A stretch of DNA of 64,000 nucleotides, from assembly GCF_000374625.1 (NCBI RefSeq), contig NZ_KB894767.1, positions 124,001-188,000 on the forward strand, written 5' to 3'. Made by a program: the position numbers and the translations under genes. Shown here one piece after another: positions 11,990-14,092 of the stretch. The notes under the pieces were generated by a model that was given only the letters and a program-made list of their open reading frames with translations, did not search any database and was not told the DNA's origin. Within the stretch, counting starts at the first letter, position 1; each line of letters opens with the position of its first letter. Origin of the DNA: Allobrachymonas chironomi DSM 19884. Its GTDB lineage: Bacteria > Pseudomonadota > Gammaproteobacteria > Burkholderiales > Burkholderiaceae_C.

Positions 11990-14092
11990 ATGTCTTATCT
12001 GGTCCTCGCCCGCAAATATCGTCCGCGCAGCTTCCTCGAAATGGTGGGGCAGGAGCACGTGGTGCAGGCGCTGACCAATGCCCTGAACACGCAGCGCCTG
12101 CACCATGCCTACATGTTCACCGGTACGCGTGGTGTTGGCAAGACCACGGTATCGCGCATTCTGGCCAAGTCACTGAACTGTACCGGGCCGGACGGCCATG
12201 GTCAGGTCACGGCCGAGCCTTGTGGTGTGTGCCAGGCCTGTACCGAGATCGATGCCGGCCGCTTTGTCGATTACATCGAGCTCGATGCCGCCTCCAACCG
12301 TGGCGTGGACGAGGTGCAGGGTCTGCTGGAACAGGCCGTCTACAAGCCGGTGCAAGGCCGCTTCAAGGTCTTCATGATCGACGAAGTGCACATGCTGACC
12401 AATACCGCCTTCAACGCCATGCTGAAGACGCTGGAAGAGCCCCCCGAATATCTCAAGTTCGTGCTGGCCACGACCGATCCGCAGAAGGTGCCGGTGACGG
12501 TGCTGAGCCGCTGTCTGCAGTTCAATTTGCGCCCGATGGTGCCGGAAACCGTGTTTGCCCACCTGGAGCATGTGCTGGGTTCGGAGGGCATTGCGGCCGA
12601 GCCGGGGGCGTTGCATCTGCTGGCGCGCGCGGCGCGCGGCTCCATGCGCGATGCGCTGTCGCTCACGGATCAGGCGATTGCCTTCAGCGGCGGCCAGGGT
12701 GGTGACGGTGGTCTGCGCACCGAATCGATCCGCCAGATGCTGGGCAGTGTCGATGCCGGCTATGTGCATCGCATGGTCGAGGCGCTGGCGCTGGCGCAGC
12801 CGGCACAGCTACTGGAGCTGGTCAAGGCGCTGCAGACGCATGGCCTGTCGGCGGCGAATGCCCTGGAGGACATGACCCAGATCCTGCAACGCATGGCGGT
12901 CTACCAGATGGTGCCTGATGCGGCCGGGCAGCCGCATCCGGACGAAGAGGAAATCCGCCGTCTGGCAGCGCTGATGCCGGTGGACGAAACGCAGCTGCTC
13001 TACAGCATTTGTCTGCAGGGTGGCCAGGAGCTGGGTCTGGCTCCTGATGAATATGCGGCCCTGGTGATGGTGTTGCTGCGCCTGCTGGCCTTCAAGCCTG
13101 CGGTAGCCAGCGCAGAAAAAAAAACACTGAAGGCGCCTGAACAGGCTGCGGCTCCGGCTGCTGCGCCAGCCGGGGTGGCACCTGCAACGGTGGCTCCTGC
13201 GGAACAGCAAGCGCAGATGACCACCGGCGTGGAGCAGGCCGGGCCCGGCGATCAACCTGTCGCGCAGGCTGTGCCGACCGGGACAGCACGCGTTGCTGCG
13301 CCCGAAAAGACGGTTGTTGCCGTGCCGCCAGAGCCTGTGGCAGTGCCTGATGCTGAGGCGGTGGTGGCGGACATGCAACCAGCCGGAGAGCCGCAGGCCG
13401 GCATCCCTCCGTGGGAAGATATTCCTCCAGCAGTTCCTGGGGCCGAAATCGCAGTGGCGCCGGTACAGGAAGCTGCCACGGTGCCGGTGGAACCCGCACC
13501 GGAGCAGGCTGCCGATGCCGCACCGGCTGCATCGTCCATAGCGCCCCCCGCGGCAGAAGCGCTGGTGCGGCTGCCCGTGGTCAGCATGACAGCGCCGCGT
13601 GCAGAGCCGGCCGCGCCGGCTGACAGCAGGATCAGCGAGGCGCGCCGTTTGCTGCCGACCGAATACGGCGATCTCTGGAGCCAGCTCGCCGGACAGATCG
13701 TGCAGCAGGGCCTGGTGACAGCCTTCACGCGCGAATTGCTGCTGCAGTCGCAGCTGCTGGAGCAGACGCAGAACGACGGTGGACAGGCGCTCTGGACGCT
13801 GCGTGTCGAGTCCGAAACCCTGCAGCATGAGCCCAGCCGCAAACGGTTGGAGCAGGCACTGGCCGATATCGGCTATCCGGTGCTGCTGCAGGTGTCGCTC
13901 GGCCGGGTGGTGGACAGTCCGGCCATGCGCACGTCGCAGGCACGCGAAGAGCAGCGCCTGCATGCCGAGCAGCTGTTTGGCAGCCATCCCTTCGTGCAAC
14001 AGATGGTGCAGCAGCTGGATGCCCAGATTGTGCCCGGCAGCGTGCAGCTGCTGGAATCCGTGGTGCCGGATCCTGAGGGTCCGGCTGCCTGA
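11990..14092 (+). CDS. dnaX: DNA polymerase III subunits tau and gamma
   Basis: Clamp-loader ATPase of the replisome; tau also tethers the core polymerases and DnaB. The 700 residues show the AAA+ module with Walker A GTRGVGKT (45-52), a four-cysteine zinc knuckle (C64 and the CGVCQAC stretch), Walker B with MIDEVHML and an SRC sensor motif, then a lid and collar to ~370. A long Ala/Pro/Glu-rich linker (~385-545) and a C-terminal tau-specific domain follow. A nine-A run at 13116-13124 lies at the end of domain III and probably makes the short gamma form by frameshifting. dnaX-ybaB-recR is a conserved operon. Confidence 0.97.
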   Translation: MSYLVLARKYRPRSFLEMVGQEHVVQALTNALNTQRLHHAYMFTGTRGVGKTTVSRILAKSLNCTGPDGHGQVTAEPCGVCQACTEIDAGRFVDYIELDAASNRGVDEVQGLLEQAVYKPVQGRFKVFMIDEVHMLTNTAFNAMLKTLEEPPEYLKFVLATTDPQKVPVTVLSRCLQFNLRPMVPETVFAHLEHVLGSEGIAAEPGALHLLARAARGSMRDALSLTDQAIAFSGGQGGDGGLRTESIRQMLGSVDAGYVHRMVEALALAQPAQLLELVKALQTHGLSAANALEDMTQILQRMAVYQMVPDAAGQPHPDEEEIRRLAALMPVDETQLLYSICLQGGQELGLAPDEYAALVMVLLRLLAFKPAVASAEKKTLKAPEQAAAPAAAPAGVAPATVAPAEQQAQMTTGVEQAGPGDQPVAQAVPTGTARVAAPEKTVVAVPPEPVAVPDAEAVVADMQPAGEPQAGIPPWEDIPPAVPGAEIAVAPVQEAATVPVEPAPEQAADAAPAASSIAPPAAEALVRLPVVSMTAPRAEPAAPADSRISEARRLLPTEYGDLWSQLAGQIVQQGLVTAFTRELLLQSQLLEQTQNDGGQALWTLRVESETLQHEPSRKRLEQALADIGYPVLLQVSLGRVVDSPAMRTSQAREEQRLHAEQLFGSHPFVQQMVQQLDAQIVPGSVQLLESVVPDPEGPAA
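13116..13124 (+). other. Nine-A slippery run in dnaX (probable tau/gamma frameshift site)
   Basis: The zero frame reads GAA AAA AAA ACA (residues 376-379). Both other frames close at once: TGA at 13128-13130 in +1 and TGA at 13138-13140 in -1. A 7-bp hairpin, CCGGCTG / CAGCCGG (13154-13160 and 13167-13173), lies about 30 bases downstream. Slippage would give a product of about 380 residues, the size of a gamma subunit. Confidence 0.7.

Follow-up and report, generated by a model that had tools for sequence, protein, structure and literature searches.

The dnaX gene of the window, by which we mean the whole 64,000-nt stretch of DNA that was analysed, contains a run of nine adenines (A9) that is likely a programmed recoding site, where RNA polymerase slippage would allow one gene to supply two clamp-loader subunits. 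The run, the two stops that follow it in the shifted frames, their conservation in relatives and an excess of two-frame closure are read directly from the sequences. According to the proposed mechanism, RNA polymerase would slip on the T9 template and produce dnaX mRNAs with nine and with other numbers of A's. Full-length tau would be translated from mRNAs with nine (or 9 ± 3) A's, while on mRNAs with other A numbers the ribosomes would enter a shifted frame, reach a stop within a few codons and release a gamma of 379–383 aa.

Tau occupies a single uninterrupted frame (the zero frame) of 700 codons, with ybaB/ebfC and then recR located 3′ of the gene. Pfam places domain III (PF12169) at aa 244–367 and tau domain V (PF12170) at aa 561–681, the latter with 27.2 bits, which is below the curated cut-off of 28.8. 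Alignment to 1jr3, the solved structure of the E. coli gamma construct, covers aa 1–375. The A9 lies directly after domain III, because it covers codons 376–379, and in its phase (phase 1) the codons GAA AAA AAA ACA CTG AAG encode E376 K377 K378 T379 L380 K381. The computed product after loss of one A ends in EKKH (379 aa, 41.3 kDa), the product after gain of one A ends in EKKNTEGA (383 aa, 41.6 kDa), and gain of two A's gives 380 aa and terminates at the same TGA as the loss of one (Table 1). The predicted gamma would thus retain the ATPase and domain III and lack the C-terminal part of tau. These results agree with the earlier note on this DNA, which had placed a nine-A run where gamma should end, with stops within a few codons in both shifted frames and a gamma of ~380 residues and ~41 kDa that is nearly identical for either direction of slippage.

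Table 1. Coordinates of dnaX features in the window, and loci of E. coli-type sites in relatives
Feature	Position	Strand	Evidence or remark
dnaX, full-length tau, 700 aa	11990..14092	+	TIGR02397 E 2.9e-118; Pfam; 1jr3 alignment
Predicted gamma core (AAA+ ATPase, lid, domain III; aa 1-376)	11990..13117	+	Pfam, 1jr3
A9 run, candidate slippage site (template T9)	13116..13124	+	codons GAA AAA AAA ACA; A_AAA_AAA in phase
TGA for one A lost or two gained (379/380 aa)	13128..13130	+	
TGA for one A gained or -1 ribosomal shift (383 aa)	13138..13140	+	place varies in relatives, function kept
Downstream hairpin	13152..13175	+	9 bp, 13152-13160/13167-13175; not conserved in genus
A_AAA_AAG loci of g99: L380-L408, L342, L343	hinge region		
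A_AAA_AAG loci of g29: L150, L345, L346, L409, L410	hinge region		

The dnaX run is the sole A9 of the window, where 0.03 are expected and 2 of 100 shuffled sequences have one, and the genome (2.5 Mb, both strands) contains only two A9 runs in total, including this one. The genome's other A9 (G000:C4:84910-84918, L002) is a T9 located immediately 3′ of a GC-rich hairpin and 3′ of, or beside, a 476-aa transporter-like ORF. By inspection, it is probably the tail of an intrinsic terminator; a TTG-started ORF in the mechanical ORF list also spans it. Across 100 genomes of the family, there are between 0 and 28 A9 runs per genome, both strands together, and therefore the repeated appearance of an A9 at one hinge by chance is unlikely.

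Retention of the run in close relatives, which the earlier note had named as a check, is borne out within the genus, among the nearest titled records and in a majority of the family's genera. Eight dnaX genes of the genus extend to the hinge, counting the window's own, and each of them has exactly nine A's in identical phase; in a ninth genome of the genus, dnaX stops short of the hinge and was not counted. The alignment of these eight genes has an invariant block, A9-C-N-CTGAA, after which only 4 of the next 69 columns are invariant. Among the best matches listed with titles, A9 is found in 80 of 80 loci from Comamonadaceae and other betaproteobacteria, a set that is biased to near relatives and in part repeats genomes that were also counted under code labels. 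The carriers include Acidovorax, Rhodoferax, Hydrogenophaga, Ramlibacter, Comamonas, Delftia, Variovorax and a MAG labelled Sulfuritalea, and the linker surrounding the run does not align across them. Of 128 genera in the family, 76 have A9 in every row read and 52 were called run-less, one of which (g25) later proved to be mixed, with A9 in L347 and without the run in L203 and L349. Loci L011 and L228 were dropped, the gene being cut short or the match ending short of the hinge. We built a FastTree phylogeny from the N-terminal part of 310 of the 312 rows, omitting two for length or stops. One of its clades has 180 tips, of which 175 carry the run and 5 do not, and over the whole tree the presence of the run changes at least 12 times.

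The closure of the two shifted frames was characterized on 166 non-identical sites of the family that had been selected for carrying the run; identical surrounding sequences were counted once, and L325 (A8) is outside the set. Their codons are (G/C)AA AAA AAA A(CN/GY/AG), and 164 of the runs are exactly A9 while two are A10 and keep the frame through AAG. A stop lies within 11 codons in the A-loss frame of 164 sites, in the A-gain frame of 161 and in both frames of 159, bearing in mind that the sequences are related and that 166 sites are not 166 independent tests. As a control, the remaining codons of these linkers (18,617) have closure rates of 17.6% (A-loss), 23.2% (A-gain) and 5.1% (both). 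When the downstream codons were redrawn synonymously, the corresponding rates were 72.5, 26.0 and 18.1%, and consequently the A-loss stop is largely due to the conserved CTG-A pair. The A-gain stop arises mostly from XXT-GAX codon pairs at varying positions; on a tree of 176 A9 rows, its place changes at least 65 times, but there are only 5 changes between open and closed. Because the stops move while closure of both frames is kept, bidirectional RNA polymerase slippage like that of Thermus thermophilus is indicated. Termination in two frames is what RNA polymerase slippage needs and is hard to reconcile with −1 ribosomal shifting, which uses one frame; the transcriptional reading is therefore favoured.

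Programmed −1 ribosomal frameshifting on A_AAA_AAA could also make gamma, with the stop in the other frame being incidental, but that frame is closed at nearly every A9 site (164 of 166) compared to 11 of 37 ribosomal A_AAA_AAG sites, and all nine A's are kept though seven would suffice. The heptamer does lie in phase inside the A9, so −1 ribosomal shifting can contribute, and the A-gain frame, which equals the −1 frame, is the one closed at 161 sites. In families f49 and f7, there are three A9 sites where early closure is limited to this frame, and folding downstream of A9 is slightly stronger than in controls. Shifting on poly-A runs in E. coli, measured with cassettes of a different gene, amounted to 10, 40 and 63% for runs of 7, 9 and 11, according to the portion of PMC3711429 available to us. 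SD-like motifs are not enriched at the A9 sites, however, and overall we consider a purely ribosomal origin of gamma to be unlikely. The comparative evidence thus supports a gamma-making slippage site, which the earlier note had proposed to be either ribosomal or Thermus-like, and it favours the Thermus type (both frames closed at 159 of 166 sites, no SD enrichment). We infer that most shifts are due to RNA polymerase and not to the ribosome, and that the cell produces gamma and uses it.

Without any recoding, the residues E-K-K-T/S could be kept for the protein, and the A's would be codon choice. All 166 sites do encode E/Q-K-K-T/S/K, although they were chosen for the run, and the zero synonymous change at the two Lys codons of the site is circular in the same way, as the rows were chosen for A9. 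At the other Lys codons of these genes, however, AAG is used 1554 times and AAA 901 times. A Lys codon in the neighbouring LAFK motif undergoes at least 21 changes in 151 rows, whereas the complete A9 is missing from only 5 of the 180 clade tips. Both flanking residues vary (E/Q on one side, T/S/K on the other) while the nucleotide stays A, which suggests that the nucleotide run is kept rather than the residues. Codon choice also gives no reason for stops in two unused frames, and we regard it as quite improbable. Homopolymers of about this length can vary at the DNA level, and phase variation at the A9 tract would be another source of altered frames. Such variation would leave out-of-frame dnaX genes without tau, and the observed runs are exactly A9 at 164 of 166 sites, the other two being A10 in frame via AAG; its probability is negligible. 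Lastly, gamma could be cut from tau by proteolysis, with the run being irrelevant, as has been reported for Caulobacter crescentus (PMC5009743, in the part available). This explanation leaves both the run and the stops unexplained and is very improbable.

We also examined potential stimulators of slippage. A downstream hairpin had been described in the earlier note as having 7 bp; it is present, but it has 9 bp and is not conserved across the genus alignment, which argues against it as a defined stimulator. It begins 28 nt past the A9, and in a 61-nt fold a longer stem begins at 13142. The 51-nt stretch folds no better than its shuffles (z −0.52, 52 of 200 as good), and the 61-nt stretch folds somewhat better (z −1.79, 7 of 200 as good). 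The window's hairpin is probably no defined part of the slippage site. Across the family, the stretches downstream of A9 have lower folding energies than same-gene controls (−22.3 versus −20.2 kcal/mol), and a dinucleotide-corrected comparison yields a mean z of −0.57 for A9 sites and −0.14 for controls (Mann-Whitney p 5e-6 if the rows are independent). Clearly stable folds (z below −2) occur at similar rates, in 13 of 166 A9 sites and 11 of 163 controls. There may be a weak ribosomal stimulator downstream of the A9 sites.

Reading the bases upstream of the window's A9 revealed no SD-like motif, and such motifs were not enriched upstream of the family's A9 sites (8.4%, compared to 15.8% in control stretches). 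A second tRNA-Lys (CUU) has been tied to slippage, an idea taken from the available part of PMC5009743, but it followed no rule across 21 genomes and was rejected as the reason for slippage. Both tRNA-Lys CUU and UUU were found in 13 of the 21 genomes, including the window's own, while G001 and G002, which are of the same genus and have A9, had UUU only. Among genomes with A_AAA_AAG sites, the three of g29 had UUU only and the three of g99 had both. The pattern search did not find tRNA-Lys(CUU) in G001, G002, G036, G161, G242 and G351; it allowed up to 2 mismatches to a single pattern, which diverged genes may escape, and it included G104, whose dnaX was not itself read.

In E. coli, gamma is produced from dnaX by −1 ribosomal frameshifting at A_AAA_AAG, aided by an upstream SD-like motif and a downstream stem-loop. 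The window shares the gene and the logic, by which an early stop gives a shorter gamma, but it differs in having an A9 with A_AAA_AAA instead of A_AAA_AAG, in the missing SD-like motif and in the closure of both frames. Its hairpin lies 28 nt from the run and is not conserved. We searched the family's genes that lack the A9 run for A_AAA_AAG and found it at the hinge in 31 of 31 genomes read of g99, in 5 of 5 of g29 and in 1 of 1 of g83; for g99, 36 of 41 genomes were matched and 6 matched places were left out. In these 37 genes, a stop always follows within 6 codons in the −1 frame (37 of 37), whereas only 11 of the 37 have one within 11 codons in the +1 frame. Just upstream of the heptamer, the 35 unique g99 and g29 sites share GGGGAG(T/C)GCCG(C/T)CGAGCC, an element in which two third codon positions are invariant and a further one is 97% conserved. 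Of these 35 sites, 32 have a G-rich SD-like motif upstream, in a motif table that is without the G106 site (L381); this search and the one for A9 sites used different motif lists and distances. The A9 and A_AAA_AAG sites therefore have different surroundings, each of which fits a different machine.

The relationship between the two kinds of site was assessed with trees. A single clade of g29 and g99 was not rejected (p-AU 0.789), the constrained tree outscoring the free one, and thus one switch may suffice. The 310-row tree gathers the A9 rows into a single clade, which also contains g99 and g29. A 73-row tree, whose forks are weak, intersperses run-less members of the family with A9 rows; given this conflict, neither the direction of the exchange nor the order of A9 gains and losses is fixed by the trees. 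We lean towards a history in which this betaproteobacterial lineage uses polymerase slippage and at least one of its sub-lineages (g99 and g29) replaced it by a ribosomal site of the E. coli type that has a conserved upstream element of its own. If so, recoding by transcription and recoding by translation have taken each other's place at a single gene inside one family, and one- versus two-frame closure would be a readable mark of the shifting machine.

Larsen and colleagues reportedly described programmed transcriptional slippage in the Thermus thermophilus dnaX gene in 2000. That gene, in the parts of PMC5009743 and PMC1088944 available, has an A9 that is soon followed by a stop in each of the other frames and undergoes transcriptional slippage. 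The window resembles it in its nine sense-strand A's, its tau in one open frame, its stops in both other frames and its truncated gamma. It differs in belonging to another phylum, in that slippage here is predicted from sequence, and in the position of the run, which is ~54% through the window's dnaX, compared to seven-eighths in Thermus (PMC1088944, same portion). A further group of dnaX genes, the two-ORF genes of GeneTack (Antonov et al. 2013; PMC3711429, available portion), has poly-A runs like the window's, but there slippage is needed to make tau, whereas the window's tau is already in the zero frame. A search for overlapping ORFs is therefore not expected to detect a site of the window's type. 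Caulobacter crescentus obtains two DnaX forms from one gene, as proposed here, but its proteolytic gamma, as described in the available part of PMC5009743, needs no recoding site.

No report of a dnaX slippage site in Comamonadaceae, betaproteobacteria or Acidovorax was found among the titles and abstract openings of the literature searched, which mostly excluded subscription journals, and the strings Burkholder- and Comamonad- do not occur in the first 300,000 characters of PMC5009743. The mechanism is already known; what appears to be new, judging from these searches, is its use throughout a lineage, closure of both frames as its mark and the swap to a ribosomal site. According to the portion of PMC1088944 available, truncating slippage is hard to predict comparatively, and only cases with a longer product were kept there; closure of both frames that persists while the stops move provides a workable comparative test for this class. 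If confirmed, the finding would extend Thermus-type production of gamma to a large group of mesophiles, some of them in culture, and would argue for selection on gamma in that group. Related genera with A9 and A_AAA_AAG architectures would allow a direct comparison.

Outside the order, dnaX genes have a run of A8 or longer in 3 of the 29 class-level genes read (of 61 matching, the window's own genome not counted), and one of these three (L437, A10) has stops within 11 codons in both shifted frames. The architecture with both frames closed is uncommon there, but not unique. In other families of the order, A9 or A10 runs are present in f49 (3 of 3), f12 (2 of 3), f7 (2 of 4), f4 (1 of 4) and f47 (1 of 1), partly at other places in dnaX. 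Six of these nine sites close both frames within ~11 codons (L181, L188, L250, L262, L333 and L335), while L179, L199 and L332 have early closure in the A-gain frame only.

The A9 runs of f49 are located at aa 387–394 (L199, L332 and L333), and those of f7 at aa 523 (L179) and 495 (L181). All five have the codons (C/G)AA AAA AAA ACT with an immediate stop in the A-gain frame, while only L181 and L333 close the A-loss frame early as well. In f12, the runs of L250 and L335 are A10 followed by G (GAA AAA AAA AAG CTG A); they occur late in dnaX, at aa 459 and 437, and both frames are closed early. In three other families, L233, L247, L251 and L336 have A8 or A9 in another phase, just before FDG(D/N)W and near the start of the C-terminal tau part, which is possibly a different truncation point.
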